Positions 44,254 through 50,995 of a stretch of 58,630 bases of DNA are shown here, one piece after another; position 1 is the stretch's first letter; each line of letters opens with the position of its first letter. This DNA comes from an uncultured Sphingomonas sp. (GTDB lineage Bacteria; Pseudomonadota; Alphaproteobacteria; Sphingomonadales; Sphingomonadaceae): assembly GCF_902806265.1 (NCBI RefSeq), contig NZ_CADCVZ010000010.1, forward strand, positions 1 to 58,630, in the 5' to 3' direction. The notes under the pieces are model-generated. The model did not search any database and was not told where the DNA came from. It was given only the letters and a program-made list of their open reading frames with translations. Position numbers and translations under genes: made by a program.

Positions 44254-45285
44254 ATGCGCGTTGACCTGTTCGACTTCGAGCTGCCGCCCGAGTTGATCGC
44301 CCTGCGTCCGGCGCGGCCGCGGGACAGCGCGCGGTTGCTCAGGGTCAAGGGCGGCGGGCTGTCCGATCACTGCATGCTCGACCTGCCGCGGCTCCTGCAG
44401 CCGGGCGATGTGCTGGTGTTCAACGATACTCGCGTGATCCCCGCCCAGCTGGAAGGCCGCCGGGGCGAAGCGAGCATCGGCGCGACCCTGCACAAGCGCG
44501 AGGGGTTGCGGCGGTGGTGGGCGTTCGTGCGCAACGCGCGGCGGGTGCGGGCCGGTGACCGGCTGGAGTTCGGCGGCGGGGTCGAGGCGCTGGCGGCCGA
44601 TAAGGGCGCGGATGGCTCCGTGCTGCTGGAGTTCGCGGGCGAGGAGCCGGTGGAACTGCTGCTGGAGCGCGCGGGAACGATGCCGCTGCCGCCCTACATC
44701 GCCTCCAGGCGCGCCGCCGACGCGGAGGACGCCGCCGACTACCAGACCATGTTCGCGCGCGAGGAGGGTGCGGTGGCCGCCCCCACCGCCGCGCTGCACT
44801 TCACCGACCGGCTGATCGCCGCCCTGGACCAGGCGGGCATCGGGCGGGAAACGCTGACCCTGCATGTCGGCGCGGGCACCTTCCTGCCGGTCAAGGCGGA
44901 GGACACGGCCGAGCATCGGATGCACGCCGAGTGGGGCCGGATCGACGCCGCAGCGGCCGAGCGTCTCAACGCCGCGCGACGGGCGGGACGGCGGCTGATC
45001 GCAGTCGGCACCACGTCGCTCCGGCTGCTGGAAAGCGCCGCCAACGAGGACGGCACCGTGCGTCCGTTCGAGGGCGACACCGACATCTTCATCACGCCGG
45101 GCTACCGCTTCCGCGCCGTGGGCGGTCTCTTGACCAACTTCCACCTGCCCAGGAGCACGCTGTTCATGCTGGTCAGCGCGCTGATGGGCCTCAACACCAT
45201 GCAACGCGCCTATGCTCATGCGATCGCGGAAGGCTACCGCTTCTACAGCTACGGGGACGGCAGCCTGCTGCTGCCTAATAGTTGA
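44254..45285 (+). CDS. queA: S-adenosylmethionine:tRNA ribosyltransferase-isomerase
   Basis: The 343-residue QueA, which attaches the epoxycyclopentane ribosyl group from SAM to preQ1 in tRNA to make epoxyqueuosine. Signatures include [58 protein letters not shown] and [17 protein letters not shown]. Its partner in the pathway, tgt, lies 6.5 kb downstream on the same strand. The 3' end overlaps crtX by 11 nt, tail to tail. Confidence 0.96.
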
Positions 45286-46510
45286 GCGTCGCTTCCACTA
45301 TGTCCGCGGCACGGGTGCGGCCGCCGGCGGCGGCGATTTCCCCCGCGAGCGTCCGAGCGCGGCGGCGGTAGCCTTCGTCGGCGACCAGGCGGCCGATCTG
45401 CTCGGGCAGCCGGCGCAGGTCTATACGCTCGCCTAGCCGATGGTGCACGATCCGCGCAGCGTTGCCCTTTTGGTCGAAGGCGACCGGACGCACCAGCAGC
45501 GGCACGCCGCACGCCAGCGCGTCAAGCACGGTGTTGGAGCCGCCGTGAGTGACGCACAGCGCGGCCCGCTTCAATACCGCACGGTAAGGGACGAAATCGG
45601 TGACGAAGGTTGCGCCGATCCCGGCCGCTTCAGCCTCGTCCAGCTTGCCGCCGTGCGCTACCAGCAGGTCGGCACCTGCGTCGCGGCAGGCGCCAGCGAT
45701 TGCTCGGAACAGCCCAACGCGCCCGCCCTGAAGCGTTCCGAAGCTGGCGAACACCAGCGGCCGCTCGGGCGCGAAGGCGAACGGCAGCACCTCGTCGCCG
45801 CGCTCCTCCTCGGGGTGGCGCAACGGTCCGACACCCACGAACGGCACCGGCTCGGGGCGCGGAAAGTCATAGCCGCAGACGAGCTGCGCGATCTGCTCCA
45901 TCGGACTGAGGCAATCCTCCATGCTGCGGCAAGGCGGATCGATACCGAGGCGCCGCGCGCAAGCTTCGATCACCCGATTCTGGCGTCGGCTGAGCAAGCC
46001 GCCGATCCGCACCGCCACCCGCGCCCGGCGGACCCCACGCGGGCTCGGGTCGAATGGCCAGTCGAGAAAAGGCAGGGGCACGCCCGGCCCGCTGTTGATC
46101 GGCAGGGCCGTGGCCAGGCTGACCAACGGCAGCCCAAGCCCCAGCGCCAGCAGTCCGCCCGCGGGCTCCAGCTGATCGGCGATCACCGCGTTGCAGCCGA
46201 TGCGCCTCAGCAGCTCGGGGGCGCCCGCGCACAGCTGGGCGGTCATGGCCGCGCTCTCCGCGATGGTGCGCAGCGTGCCGAACAGTCCGGCGGGCCGGGT
46301 GGCGTTGGCGAGCACCCGTCCGACCGCCGGATCGCCGCTGCGTCCGGCCACGGTTTCGCACCCGAGCACCGCCGACTTCACCATGGCCTCGGCCTCGGCG
46401 TTCAGCACAAAGGTCGCACGATGGCCACGCCGCACCAGCTCCTCGCCGAGCACGCTCAGCGAGTGGATATGGCTCGCGAAGGGCGGGCAGATCAGCGCGA
46501 AATGAGCCAT
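45275..46510 (-). CDS. crtX: Carotenoid glycosyltransferase, CrtX-like (GT1)
   Basis: A 411-residue UDP-sugar-dependent glycosyltransferase: [33 protein letters not shown] at the acceptor side and the C-terminal donor site [40 protein letters not shown], including the HGG(S)NT motif and a downstream FDQKGNA. The pattern and its place 7 nt after crtW fit zeaxanthin/astaxanthin glucosyltransferase CrtX. It would add a sugar to hydroxylated carotenoids, making them polar. Confidence 0.85.
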
Positions 46511-46517
46511 GGCCCGC

Positions 46518-47273
46518 TCAGGGCTGTAGCTGCGCTTGGCGCCTTTGTCGCTCCGCCGGCAGCCGCCACCAGGGCGTCCCAGGGCTCAGATGGTGCTCGC
46601 GGTGGTAGCCGAAATGAAAGCAGGTCAGCAGCGAGGCGAGCCAGCCGTATTCGTTGCTGCGCGCGCGATGCTCGTCCGCGAACGGCGCTTCCTCGTGCCG
46701 GTGCGGGAGGAAGGTGCCGAACAGGAACAGCTGCACGGAGGACAAGAGGGACGGCACCGCCCAGAACAGCAGCAGGTTGGCGAGCGGCGCGCCCAGCAGG
46801 AGGATGTAGCTCCATACCAGGGCGGTCAGCAGCAGGAACTCGCGCAGCCCGAAATAGCGCCGCATGAACTGCCCGTACCAGGGCCAGAAGCGGGTCGGAT
46901 GATCTTCGGAGAAGTCGGGGTCGTGCCCGGTGCCGACATGGCGGTGATGGTCGAAATGCTTGGGGGCGAGCCGGTCCATCCAGAACCCCGCGTAGAGCAG
47001 CAGCGCCAGTCGACCGACCGACCGGTTCACGGCGGGGCGCCCGGGCGCCAGGCTGCCGTGCATCGCGTCGTGGGCAACGATGAAGAGGCCGACGCTGAGC
47101 CAAGTCAGCGCCGCCACCAGCAGCGGCGCCGCCAGCAGGCCAATGCTCCGGAGAGGGTGAAAGAACACCGAATAGACGTGCAGCCCGAGCCAGACTACCA
47201 TGATCAGCCCGGCGAGGCCAAGCCCGATCACCGTCTGCCGGCGCTTCTGGGCGGCGATGAGCATGGTGGTCAT
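46518..47273 (-). CDS. crtW: Beta-carotene ketolase, CrtW type
   Basis: A 251-residue membrane di-iron oxygenase that adds 4-keto groups to beta-ionone rings. The three histidine clusters are clear: HDAMH (68-72), HFDHHRH (106-112) and HFGYHREHH (220-228); FGTFLPHR and the C-terminal PWWRLP are CrtW hallmarks. Hydrophobic helices flank the His boxes. It uses beta-carotene, the same substrate as the divergent Blh, so the two enzymes would compete. First gene of the crtW-crtX pair, 110 nt from the rhodopsin start. Confidence 0.92.
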   Translation of the reverse strand: MTTMLIAAQKRRQTVIGLGLAGLIMVVWLGLHVYSVFFHPLRSIGLLAAPLLVAALTWLSVGLFIVAHDAMHGSLAPGRPAVNRSVGRLALLLYAGFWMDRLAPKHFDHHRHVGTGHDPDFSEDHPTRFWPWYGQFMRRYFGLREFLLLTALVWSYILLLGAPLANLLLFWAVPSLLSSVQLFLFGTFLPHRHEEAPFADEHRARSNEYGWLASLLTCFHFGYHREHHLSPGTPWWRLPAERQRRQAQLQP

Positions 47274-47383
47274 TTAGTGCCGTTCCCACCGGCTTACCAG
47301 TCCGGCGCCGGCAAGCGAACCATTGGAACCCTAGGACTTGCTGGCCATTTCACGTGCGGGGCGGCTCAGCAGGGGTGATGCGC

Positions 47384-48235
47384 ATGACTCGCAACCAGTG
47401 GCTTGGCTTCGGTGCGGCGGCGTTCGTCGTCGGCTTTGTGGCAATCCTCGCCATGCGCCGCCCGGACGAGGGCGGAGGCGGCGCCACCGCGGACCAGTCG
47501 GACCAGCCTGAGATCGCGGTGAAGACCCGCGAGGAGGAGAACGACAAGCTCATCCACAGCCTGGTCGTGCTGACCGCGGGCACGGCCTACCTGCTGATGG
47601 CCAGCGGCGGCGGGCGCAAGCCGAAAGAAGGCGGGCGCGAGCTGTTCTGGATGCGCTACGTCGACTGGTCGATCACCACGCCCCTGCTGCTCACCAGCCT
47701 CGGGCTGACCGCGCTGGGCACCCCGTTCCGCCGTTGGGGCCTGCTCCTCGGTACGCTGTTCACCGACCTGTACATGATCGCCACCGGCTATCTGGCGGAC
47801 GAAGCACCCAAGGACAGCTCGATGAAGTGGAGCTGGTACGGCGTCAGCACCGGAGCGTTCGTCGGCCTTTATTACCTGCTCTGGGGTCCGCTGCGGGAGG
47901 AATCGGAGAAGACCGGCGAGGAAGCCGCCGACGTCTACCGCCGCAACCTCACTTTCCTTAGCATCGTCTGGGCCGGCTACCCGGTCAACTTCCTGATCGG
48001 CCCCGAGGCGCTGGAGCTGATCGACGACGACACCAGCACCGGCATCTACACCGGCCTGGATATCGCCGCGAAAATCCTGTTCGGCCTCTACTCGCTCAGC
48101 AACACGCAGGAAAAGGCCGCCCGCGCGCTCGCCGACGGACGCGTTCCCGAGCATGAGCTTCGGCCGGCCCCGGCCGCGCACCACGAGGTCTGGGAACCGG
48201 GCTCGAGCGAAGAGCGGAGGGGCCGCGGCGGGTGA
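47384..48235 (+). CDS. Microbial rhodopsin, DTS-motif proton pump type with helix-B histidine
   Basis: A 283-residue, seven-helix retinal protein. Helix C reads RYVDWSITTPLLLTS: Asp94 (Schiff-base proton acceptor), Thr98 and Ser105 replace the usual Asp-Thr-Asp/Glu, so the carboxylic proton donor is missing. His58 on helix B aligns with bacteriorhodopsin Thr46, the donor's partner; this His plus DTG/DTS is the signature of a proteobacterial group of outward proton pumps. Lys230 in LDIAAKILFG binds retinal; Asp226 is the second counterion. Leu102 suggests green absorption. Loop A-B is long and acidic. ATG 47384 has AGGGG at 8 nt; ATG 47378 is too close. Stop overlaps blh. Confidence 0.93.
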   Translation: MTRNQWLGFGAAAFVVGFVAILAMRRPDEGGGGATADQSDQPEIAVKTREEENDKLIHSLVVLTAGTAYLLMASGGGRKPKEGGRELFWMRYVDWSITTPLLLTSLGLTALGTPFRRWGLLLGTLFTDLYMIATGYLADEAPKDSSMKWSWYGVSTGAFVGLYYLLWGPLREESEKTGEEAADVYRRNLTFLSIVWAGYPVNFLIGPEALELIDDDTSTGIYTGLDIAAKILFGLYSLSNTQEKAARALADGRVPEHELRPAPAAHHEVWEPGSSEERRGRGG

Positions 48236-49122
48236 GCCTCGCCGCGCAGCTGCCGCTGCTGGGCCTGGCGGTGTTCGTCGGCGGAACCCCCCACGGGGCA
48301 CTGGACCATCGGGTCGCGCGGGGGCTGCTGGAGCCCGTGCTGGGCCGCGGCTGGCTCGGCGCGTTCCTGCTGCTCTACCTGACGGCGGCTGGCGCGATGC
48401 TGCTGTGGTGGCTGGCCGCGCCCGGCCCCGCGCTCGCCGCTTTCCTGATCCTTGCCACGGTCCACTTCGGCAGCCACGATTCGCCCAGCGGGGCACCTGT
48501 CGCGGTCCTCGCCCGAGGCGCGATTCCGCCAATCGCCGCCGCGGCGGCTCACCGGGAAGAGTTGACCACGATCTTCGGCTGGCTCGCTGGGGAGCAAGGC
48601 GCCGCCTTGGTGCCATGGCTGGCCGGGCCGGGGCTGATCGTCTGGCTGTGCGCAGCGGTGGTAACGCTCGCGATCGAGCGGGAGGCAATCGGTCGCCTGG
48701 AGCTGATCGGCGTCACTGCGCTGTTCCTGTTCCTGCCGCCACTGCTTGCCTTCGCTGCCTACTTTGCGCTGCTGCACTCGCCGCGGGCGTTGCGGTCTTC
48801 ATTGCTGCCGGGCGAGACGGTCCCGCAGCTGCTGAAAGCCGCGCTCCCCTTCAGTGTCGCGGCTGTGGCTCTGGCCGCGCTCGGCTACGGCTTGCTGCGC
48901 CAGGAACTCGCGGCGGACGCGGCGTTCGTGCGGACCGTGTTCTGGTGGCTGGCCGCGCTGACCGTTCCGCACATGGGCCTGCACCTGCTGAATGCGCGCC
49001 GAGCCGCTCAGGCGGCGCCTCAAACGACGAAGAAGTCCGCCGCCGTCAAGTTGAGGTCACTGCCGGCCACCGTCGCGAACAGCAGCTGCGCCGCTCCGCC
49101 GGCGCCGTCCGGGTCGAAGTAG
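48232..49122 (+). CDS. blh: Blh/Brp-family beta-carotene 15,15'-dioxygenase
   Basis: A 296-residue polytopic membrane enzyme that cleaves beta-carotene to retinal. Iron-ligand histidines His21 (GTPHGALDH) and His78 (VHFGSHD) sit at exactly the positions known in the marine 66A03 enzyme. The HSxRH motif, which normally gives two more ligands, reads LLHSPRAL here: His182 is present, the last His is Ala186. GTG 48232 overlaps the rhodopsin stop (GTGA), so retinal supply and opsin are translated together. The last ~34 residues overlap the convergent esterase gene by 103 nt and look like run-on. Confidence 0.9.
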   Translation: MSLAAQLPLLGLAVFVGGTPHGALDHRVARGLLEPVLGRGWLGAFLLLYLTAAGAMLLWWLAAPGPALAAFLILATVHFGSHDSPSGAPVAVLARGAIPPIAAAAAHREELTTIFGWLAGEQGAALVPWLAGPGLIVWLCAAVVTLAIEREAIGRLELIGVTALFLFLPPLLAFAAYFALLHSPRALRSSLLPGETVPQLLKAALPFSVAAVALAALGYGLLRQELAADAAFVRTVFWWLAALTVPHMGLHLLNARRAAQAAPQTTKKSAAVKLRSLPATVANSSCAAPPAPSGSK

Positions 49123-50867
49123 AGCCTGCGGGCCACGGGATCGAAGATGATCCGGTCGTCCGCGTCCACCGCGACGATTCCAGTGCGGAAGGCGCCGGCG
49201 CCAAGCGCTCCGGTCGGCAGTCCGGCGAAGACCGCATTCTCCAGCCGGATACTTTCCTCGGCTGCCGAGAAGTCGCCGATCCGATCGACATTGCCGCTGC
49301 CGAGTGCGGTGGTGAACGCGAACACGTCCGCGCCTGCCTTGCCGTGCAGCGAGTCGCTACCGCCTTTGCCGTCGATGATGTTGCTTGCCGCGTTGCCGAT
49401 GATGGTTTGTGCGAGTTCGTTGCCGGTGAGGTTGAGCGCTGCCGTGCCTCTGCTGTTGGTGGTCGACAGCACCTCAATCGCGGAGCCTTTCGCCAACTGG
49501 TAGCTGACGGTGGTGTAGACGCGGTCGGTCCCGCCGCCGGCCCCTTCGACCACCAGCGTGGAGCTGCTCCTCACTGTATAGCTGTCGTTCTGAACCGCCG
49601 CATTGTCGGCCTGGAGGAGGTAGGCGCCCGTTAGGACCCCAACTCCGCGCAACTCAACGGTGTAGTTGCCTGCGACCGTTGTCGTGAACTGGAGAAACGC
49701 GTCGAGGCCCAGCCCGCCGTCATCGTTCGACGCGACCACCGTCCCGTCCGGGCCGATGATCCGCAGCTCGGGGTCGGCCAGCGTCCCCGAGGCATTGGCC
49801 GTGAGCTTGCCCGAACCGAGGCCGAGCATCTCGAAGGTGAAGGTCGAGTTGGCGGCCAGCGAGAAGGTCAATCGGTCCACCTCTCCCTTGGCTGCGATGG
49901 ACCCCCGCAGCCCTACGTCCGACTGCGCCATCCGGACCGCTTCGCCCGAGGATCCGCCGTTGACCGCATCGATCAGGTAGGCGGCGGCATGGGCATGCAG
50001 CTGCGCGGTTGGGTGCAGCTGGTCCATGAAGACCAGACTGCTCCGGTTGGCCGGGTAGATGGCCGAGGCGGGGTAGATCCGCTCCAGATTGTCGAAGATG
50101 AAGTCGCCCATTTCGGTGAAGCTGGCGTAGATGATCTCCGCCTCCGGCCGGAGCGTTCGCAGATCCTCGATCTCCGCCCGGATCAACTCGTCCAGCATGC
50201 GGGCATATTCGGTTGCGACTGCGCGGCGCTGGGCTTCATCGAAGAGGCCGTTGTAATAGGGTTGCAGCCCCACGTCGGGCACGCCGGTGATCAGGATGTG
50301 GTCGACGCCGATGTCGATGGCCTGGCGGATCTCCTCGATGAACTCCGCCGCGTCCCGCTCCATGCTGGCCCGAACGGACTCGAGATCGCGCCAGGGGCCG
50401 GTAGCGGGGACGTAGTCGTGCACATCGTTCGCGCCGAAGGTAAACAGGTGAAGCGCATCGCCGTCGGCATCGCCGTCCACCGCGTCACGGAAGGCGTCCG
50501 TCTGGTCGTCCATGTCCGGCACCGCCTCGCCGCCCTGCCGGATCTGGGCGCCGCCGTAAGCGAAGTTCAGATTGTTGCCGTTCGGATCGGAGAAGAAGCC
50601 GAACGAGATGCCGAGCAGGGGATCGTCATAGCCGAATGGGAACACCGGTTTGGTCGGCACGCCGATGAACTTGTTGCTGATCAGGTCGGCGTAGGTGAAG
50701 CCGTCGGTGAACCGTCCCTTGTAGTAGCCCCTACCGGTCGACGGCGCGCCGTCCGGCAGCGAGGTGAACGGAAAGAAGTCGTAGACCTCGGCCAGGTCAA
50801 GGGCGTTGCCGGCGTCGACCAGGCTATCGCCGAATACGTACACTCCCGAGAAGTTGCGCAGGCCCAT
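49020..50867 (-). CDS. GDSL/SGNH esterase with PPC-like domain and RTX-like C-terminus
   Basis: A secreted 615-residue protein. N-terminal SGNH hydrolase: Ser in YVFGDSLVDAGNA, FAYGGAQI, FGANDV, and Asp/His in FMDQLHPT. A middle domain around residues 330-420 resembles bacterial pre-peptidase C-terminal folds. The C-terminus has ASNIIDGKGGSDSLHGKAGADVFAF, an RTX-type calcium turn, then a serralysin-like signal region ending ADFFVV. No Sec signal, so export by a type I system is expected, probably the PrtD/HlyD pair at 33-36 kb. ATG 50867 with GGGAG at 8 nt. Confidence 0.85.
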   Translation of the reverse strand: MGLRNFSGVYVFGDSLVDAGNALDLAEVYDFFPFTSLPDGAPSTGRGYYKGRFTDGFTYADLISNKFIGVPTKPVFPFGYDDPLLGISFGFFSDPNGNNLNFAYGGAQIRQGGEAVPDMDDQTDAFRDAVDGDADGDALHLFTFGANDVHDYVPATGPWRDLESVRASMERDAAEFIEEIRQAIDIGVDHILITGVPDVGLQPYYNGLFDEAQRRAVATEYARMLDELIRAEIEDLRTLRPEAEIIYASFTEMGDFIFDNLERIYPASAIYPANRSSLVFMDQLHPTAQLHAHAAAYLIDAVNGGSSGEAVRMAQSDVGLRGSIAAKGEVDRLTFSLAANSTFTFEMLGLGSGKLTANASGTLADPELRIIGPDGTVVASNDDGGLGLDAFLQFTTTVAGNYTVELRGVGVLTGAYLLQADNAAVQNDSYTVRSSSTLVVEGAGGGTDRVYTTVSYQLAKGSAIEVLSTTNSRGTAALNLTGNELAQTIIGNAASNIIDGKGGSDSLHGKAGADVFAFTTALGSGNVDRIGDFSAAEESIRLENAVFAGLPTGALGAGAFRTGIVAVDADDRIIFDPVARRLYFDPDGAGGAAQLLFATVAGSDLNLTAADFFVV

Positions 50868-50995
50868 GCTATTGGCTCCCCTTTTTGCGCGCAGCAGGCG
50901 AGTTGGTCCGCTGGGCGCGCGATCGACCGTGCCGCACAAAGCTGAGCCGATGAGCGAGTCGCTTCAACCCCTTAGTTGGTTAACGCAGCTCAGCT

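Follow-up and report, generated by a model that had tools for sequence, protein, structure and literature searches.

Rhodopsins of the DTG/DTS group have their carboxylate proton donor replaced by a histidine gate; they fall into two clades, and which ions these transport is a matter of dispute. A gene for a rhodopsin with a DTS motif is found in the stretch of Sphingomonas DNA analysed here (58,630 nucleotides, in the following called the window), and this raises the question of where the encoded protein stands in this group, which ion it would transport and when the cells would make it.

The gene and its key residues

The reading frame, start and end of the gene had been called correctly in the first-pass annotation: it begins with ATG and encodes 283 amino acids (Table 1). 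Its product matches the Pfam profile Bac_rhodopsin with an E value of 6e-38 and is the only such match in the source genome assembly (2.33 Mb, 64 contigs, 97% complete). Since a profile search of this genome also found no match to a photosynthetic reaction-centre family, it was fair to rank the gene first among the candidates for a light-driven energy system in the window. The AlphaFold (AF2) model, based on a 46-row alignment, has seven helices with a mean pLDDT of 89.5 and a pTM of 0.86; helix B comprises residues 49-73 and helix C residues 89-111. The top three matches of the model in a Foldseek search against the PDB were 8xx8, 8anq and 7w74, with TM scores of 0.75/0.93 for SpaR (8anq_B) and 0.73/0.90 for PspR (7w74), a DTG rhodopsin from Pseudomonas putida. 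In the core (codons 1-24 and 48-250), comparison with the closest relative in an uncultured Sphingomonas MAG (L018, 88% identity) gave a dN/dS of 0.074; the gene is thus under strong purifying selection and not a chance open reading frame. It appears to be a genuine gene for a light-driven ion pump of a known rhodopsin kind, on a rare side branch, and protons are most likely what it would pump.

Table 1 Features of the rhodopsin locus (positions in the window)
Feature	Position	Strand	Remarks
GT1-type glycosyltransferase, candidate carotenoid glycosyltransferase	45275..46510	-	downstream of crtW; PF00201, 44 bits
crtW-like beta-carotene ketolase	46518..47273	-	divergent from rhodopsin; NF045690, 224.9 bits (below the cut-off of 350); PF00487
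EcfG-type promoter candidate	47325..47349	+	GGAAC-N16-CATT; 34 bases before the rhodopsin start
Rhodopsin gene, DTS motif	47384..48235	+	283 aa, stop codon included; PF01036, 130.9 bits
A-B (cytoplasmic) loop, residues 25-47	47456..47524	+	holds the lineage-specific insert; acidic, rich in Gly/Asp
E51, E52, N53, D54	47534..47545	+	E-E-x-D signature of MpR-like rhodopsins by alignment; signature from PMC10154332
His58 codon	47555..47557	+	helix B, BR Thr46 position; alignments and AF2 helix B
Helix C motif	47663..47698	+	D94 47663-47665, T98 47675-47677, S105 47696-47698; alignments
K230 codon	48071..48073	+	Schiff-base lysine; aligned with SpaR K211
C-terminal motif PEHELRP, residues 255-261	48146..48166	+	confined to the window lineage among 82 tails
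blh, beta-carotene 15,15'-dioxygenase	48232..49122	+	retinal synthesis; TIGR03753, 149 bits (cut-off 95.25)

For the comparison of residues we used L063, the rhodopsin of Sphingomonas paucimobilis NBRC 13935, in which they agree with the SpaR numbering as published. R70, Y71, D73, W74, T77, L81 and S84 of SpaR correspond to R91, Y92, D94, W95, T98, L102 and S105 in the window rhodopsin, so that the triad had been numbered correctly, with residue 105 lying in helix C. H37, Y48, D207 and K211 correspond to H58, Y69, D226 and K230, D226 being the counterion. Replaced are H32/H33, Y67, E92, S121 and C137 (N53/D54, F88, T113, D139 and T156 in the window rhodopsin). The histidine had been proposed to sit at the position of Thr46 in bacteriorhodopsin; indeed, His58 aligns with SpaR H37 and lies inside helix B of the model. 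For SpaR, the account in PMC10154332 places H37 at this same position, close enough to S84 for a hydrogen bond in the crystal structure 8ANQ, and describes outward proton pumping at acidic pH.

The helix-B His is present in 83 of 95 aligned rows, and none of the 83 has Asp or Glu at position 105 (55 Gly, 18 Ser, 7 Thr, 3 Ala). On a thinned tree, the state at this position needs to have changed at least 12 times over 50 rows. Ser is not rare here: being found in 18 of 83 rows, that of S. paucimobilis included, Ser105 is a common variant. In a first tree, the group of helix-B-His rows (50 rows) stands apart from xanthorhodopsin-like and xenorhodopsin-like rows with a support of 96/94; a second tree gave the same split with 100/100 for a group of 52 rows including 8xx8, which itself is without the His. 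Membership in the DTG/DTS group without a carboxylic donor, as read from the letters of the DNA before, is therefore backed by motif and tree. The window rhodopsin does not cluster with xanthorhodopsins or sensory rhodopsins, and His58 does not fall outside helix B.

Rhodopsins of other types were also met in the sample. A genus-mate (G012; L012, 7715-8452) and Micromonospora (L095-L097) have proteins with a DTA motif, Ala in place of the helix-B His and Pro for Asp212, which we take to be xenorhodopsin-like by these features. Xenorhodopsins have Pro in place of Asp212, whereas the window rhodopsin has D226 where this Pro would be expected. Further genus-mates (L005, L006, L007, L008 and L010) have DTE with a Gly at the antenna position or NTQ, a chloride-pump motif. 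From one species of the genus to the next, the type of rhodopsin seems to be exchanged. A SpaR-like DTS rhodopsin labelled Arthrobacter sp. TPD3018 (L033) groups inside the Sphingomonas rows and is probably a mislabelled record. A relative from a viral collection (L098) has the same ORF length and score as a Methylobacterium gossipiicola entry (L058); it is thus probably bacterial and was dropped.

A third lineage beside the SpaR-like and MpR-like rows

According to PMC10154332, the DTG/DTS rhodopsins split into a SpaR-like clade (103 proteins) with the residues H32, H33, S121 and S199 and an MpR-like clade (60 proteins; 48 DTG, 9 DTS, 2 DTA, 1 DTT) with E32, E33 and D35; one MpR-like member is cited there as a Li+/Na+ pump. 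The window rhodopsin combines features of both. By alignment, E32, E33 and D35 of MpR correspond to E51, E52 and D54; the Ser at the S121 position is lost (D139) and that at the S199 position is kept (S218).

Two maximum-likelihood trees were calculated, one of 57 rows, in which near-identical rows as well as L008 and L010 were left out, and one of 55 rows, in which further rows were left out and two PDB rows added. SpaR-like rows (24 and 25 in the two trees) form a clade with a support of 100/100 in both, and this clade excludes the window rhodopsin. The same is true for the 17 MpR-like rows of each tree (100/96 and 99/96); here, MpR-like denotes the branch with the Methylobacterium rows, where E32/E33/D35 fit the published numbering, MpR itself not being among the rows. 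The window rhodopsin thus lies in neither clade as sampled and belongs to a third lineage of the helix-B-His group. AU tests reject neither a joint clade of the window lineage with the SpaR-like rows (p 0.27) nor one with the MpR-like rows (p 0.066), and a grouping of SpaR-like and MpR-like rows without the window lineage reached only 69/31; the window lineage is thus distinct from the two clades as sampled, whereas more than one branching order of the three lineages fits the data.

The lineage comprises, besides the window rhodopsin and L018, a gene from another uncultured Sphingomonas MAG (L020, 85% identity, cut by the contig end), a tandem pair from Sphingomonas sp. BN140010 (L019, 72% and 56%) and a pair of Aureimonas leprariae genes that share a contig (L021 and L022, 49% and 48%). 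The Sphingomonas part, five rows, is supported by 100/98 in the 57-row and 99/97 in the 55-row tree. The joining of Aureimonas, represented in the trees by the single row L021, is weakly supported (94/86 and 89/49), and a common C-terminal tail is the better argument for its membership. The tail motif P[DE]x[DE][LI]RP is found in 6 of 6 members with a complete tail and in 0 of 76 others; L020, being cut, is absent from these counts. Position 105 varies within the lineage, with Ser in the window, L018 and L020 genes and Gly in the other four. Position 54 is His in three genes, the second tandem gene of BN140010 and both Aureimonas genes. The lineage is rare: at an E value of 1e-40, one of 396 genomes drawn from the order has a match, the window's own, and among 100 relatives' genomes (own included) one other has a match above 70% identity. 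Duplicates were dropped before counting (L001, L003, L004, L009, L011 and L098, of L002, L019, L012 and L058; L002 is the window itself), and contig loci were examined for the best 80 of 148 relatives.

In BN140010, two tandem DTG rhodopsin genes (L019, 6001-7655) precede a single blh, whereas the window and L018 have the first only; the second was thus either lost on the line to the window or acquired in BN140010. The pair shares with the window rhodopsin the surrounding crtW, GT1, blh and tauE genes, the tail motif and an EcfG-type site before the first gene; it differs in having Gly at position 105 in both copies. The two Aureimonas genes lie on separate stretches of their contig, each with its own blh match.

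A long acidic A-B loop had been pointed out before. It is indeed long, with 32 residues where 79 of the 83 helix-B-His rows have 12-14, and acidic on balance, with 9 D+E against 5 K+R across 35 residues of the region. Among the 83 rows, only the window, L018, L020 and the first tandem gene of BN140010 have such a loop (32, 32, 32 and 28 residues). However, its importance was overstated, since it is poorly conserved: for the 23 codons 25-47, dN/dS against L018 is 0.49, as compared to 0.074 in the core. A conserved functional domain was rejected because the length is kept but the sequence is not. Block means of pLDDT in the loop range from 58 to 81. As judged from these substitution rates, the acidic insert is real but a rapidly changing linker.

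With the mirror proteorhodopsins SpaR, PaR and PspR, the window rhodopsin shares the helix-B His, the lack of a carboxylic donor, the Asp acceptor, Ser or Gly at the donor position and a similar predicted fold. The SpaR-like class is defined by outward pumping only at acidic pH and by inhibition by Zn2+. In contrast to its members, the window rhodopsin is without equivalents of the H32/H33 pair, E92 and S121, has the long loop and the lineage-specific tail and is only 35% identical to the S. paucimobilis protein. With the MpR-like DTG rhodopsins of Methylobacterium and its kin it has in common E-E-x-D at the start of helix B, the helix-B His and the absence of S121, but it differs by the Ser at the S199 position, the insert and the tail; identity to three Methylobacteriaceae rows is 34-37%. 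Glycilhalorhodopsin from Salinarimonas soli (8xx8), to judge by its name an anion pump, is the best PDB match in the sequence comparison (157.9 bits) as well as by Foldseek E-value; it has, however, a Thr-Thr-Gly motif, and Gln where the window rhodopsin has His58. Since this nearest solved structure has Thr at the acceptor position, the preferred ion may be readily altered in this part of the tree.

Retinal supply and the transported ion

The stop codon of the rhodopsin gene overlaps the start of blh in GTGA. A blh gene also follows the rhodopsin gene in S. paucimobilis, and blh-like genes are present in 73 of the best 80 of 148 relatives' loci. crtB, crtI and crtY are grouped on contig C34 of the source genome. 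With blh beside the rhodopsin gene, beta-carotene and retinal can thus be made. A crtW-like gene was seen, apart from the window, in 3 of the same 80 loci (L018, L019 and L020), and in these, too, it is adjoined by the glycosyltransferase gene, both being divergent from the rhodopsin gene. A GDSL lipase gene (49020-50939, minus strand), which also gave weak PPC and RTX-type repeat matches, separates blh from tauE in the window. These two genes adjoin each other in L018, and the lipase gene is unmatched in the best 80 of 148 relatives' loci; it was therefore either gained in the window or lost in L018. A search for repeats gave nothing telling.

We consider it likely that the protein binds retinal and, driven by light, pumps protons outward in the manner of the helix-B-His (DTG/DTS) rhodopsins. 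Light would isomerise the retinal bound to K230, and the proton of the Schiff base would pass to D94, assisted by D226 and R91 as in SpaR, and be released on the outer side. As helix C has no carboxylic donor, reprotonation would proceed from the cytoplasm past His58 through an open cytoplasmic cavity, with His58 expected to form a hydrogen bond to Ser105, and would probably be fastest at mildly acidic pH. The role of the SpaR His-His pair would be taken over by E51, E52 and D54 at the cytoplasmic mouth. Retinal would be delivered by Blh, whose gene is presumably co-transcribed.

That the protein is a proton pump had been suggested earlier from the group. Membership in the group stood, but the ion does not follow from it, since the published group is split in two; with a rhodopsin outside both sampled clades that carries the MpR-like signature, we infer the proton and do not obtain it as a consequence of the group. 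Following the claim made for MpR, the protein might instead be a light-driven Na+/Li+ pump in which the cluster of E51, E52 and D54, located at the published positions E32, E33 and D35 of MpR, attracts the cation at the cytoplasmic mouth; as mentioned above, a joint clade with the MpR-like rows was not rejected (AU p 0.066). However, the sampled MpR-like clade, of which MpR itself is not a row, is supported without the window rhodopsin, position 54 is occupied by His in three members of the window lineage, the proton acceptor D94 is of the normal type and the Li+/Na+ report for MpR is known to us as cited in PMC10154332. A Na+/Li+ pump is thus unlikely, and proton transport remains the preferred reading. 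The occurrence of the acidic MpR signature together with the SpaR-type Ser105 and Ser218 in one lineage would make it a test case for the residues that decide between proton and sodium.

The conserved tail, restricted to this lineage, could also dock a partner, as expected for a photosensor or light-signalling rhodopsin, and the promoter comparison described below gives the gene the look of stress regulation. But the pump-type pair D94/D226 is kept, and the Pfam-tested neighbours (the genes for the glycosyltransferase, the crtW-like desaturase, Blh, the GDSL lipase, TauE, and queuosine and isomerase genes) include no transducer or kinase; a sensory rhodopsin was rejected on this ground, and we regard signalling as quite improbable. 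Still less credit is due to a proton pump with a carotenoid antenna served by the neighbouring ketolase. The divergent crtW and glycosyltransferase genes in the window, L018, L019 and L020 would fit such a pump, but the position of Gly178 in GR, where the exchange G178W is described to abolish carotenoid binding (PMC9151804), is occupied by Tyr152; Phe (51) or Tyr (32) is found there in all 83 helix-B-His rows, whereas the three xanthorhodopsin-like rows of the genus, L005-L007, have Gly. Xanthorhodopsins combine this Gly with a Glu donor and a His on helix B beside the counterion (G, E and H in L005-L007). The window rhodopsin has Y152, S105 and A68 at these positions, and a xanthorhodopsin with a carotenoid antenna was rejected on these residues and the tree.

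A candidate promoter for the general-stress sigma factor

A sigma-70 promoter scan of 47200-49300 found none. A candidate EcfG-type promoter precedes the rhodopsin gene. For S. melonis Fr1, PMC6599016 gives the EcfG motif as GGAAC-N17-20-GTT, enriched less than 100 bp from the start. The window site ends in CATT, whereas the usual EcfG form has GTT; CATT endings are, however, included in the site list of that publication. GGAAC is invariant in an alignment of the divergent crtW/rhodopsin intergenic region from four genomes.

Among 83 upstream regions, each of 200 bp, 15 contain the pattern GGAAC-N16/17-N[AG]TT, as compared to a mean of 0.69 and a maximum of 4 in 300 Markov samples, but this form was chosen after a strict one had failed and the enrichment is thus post hoc. 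As controls, the reverse complement gave 0/83 and the reversed pattern 1/83. The strict CGTT form was found in none of 82 regions of 300 bp and in 6 of 4100 random stretches; in the same regions, the [CG][AG]TT form matched 7/82 against 22/4100 and the NGTT form 11/82 against 24/4100. When the spacer of GGAAC-Nx-NGTT was varied from 8 to 27, 11 matches fell on lengths 16-17 and 2 on the other 18 lengths; with N[AG]TT the peak is weaker (15 against 11). Genome-wide, GGAAC-N16/17-CRTT is not enriched (43 against 66 in the reversed control), and a like pattern within the window alone has 2 matches where 2.1 are expected. Therefore, only the comparison across loci carries weight for EcfG.

Six of seven genes of the window lineage are preceded by a promoter-like site, the exception being the second tandem gene of BN140010, which follows directly behind the first. 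All 15 sites are alphaproteobacterial (15/70, as compared to 0/13 other rows and 0/12 other rhodopsin types), with plasmid rows assigned by organism name and L033 counted as non-alphaproteobacterial. They fall into about four groups, the window lineage, a Methylobacterium group, Erythrobacteraceae and two Sphingomonas; related loci are not independent, and after thinning 11 of 50 loci have a site.

As far as can be judged from this comparison, EcfG, the sigma factor of the general stress response, probably drives transcription of the rhodopsin gene, and the pump would then serve stressed or starving cells; if true, such a promoter tells when cells switch the pump on. One may speculate further that EcfG directly controls the rhodopsin-blh operons of the lineage, along with those of several other helix-B-His rhodopsins from alphaproteobacteria, which would make such pumps a device for stress survival and not for growth. 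The window lineage might then form a functional class of its own, the third, in which the cytoplasmic tail has a specific partner and the ion, too, may be a different one, but this wider proposal is put forward only tentatively. The general-stress-response transcription studies that we found, a part of that literature, do not mention rhodopsin; a review on light control (PMC11011852) contains both general-stress-response and rhodopsin terms. In the source genome, the genes for PhyR (NF006623, 366.9 bits), NepR, an ECF sigma factor and a HisKA_2/HWE kinase lie side by side.
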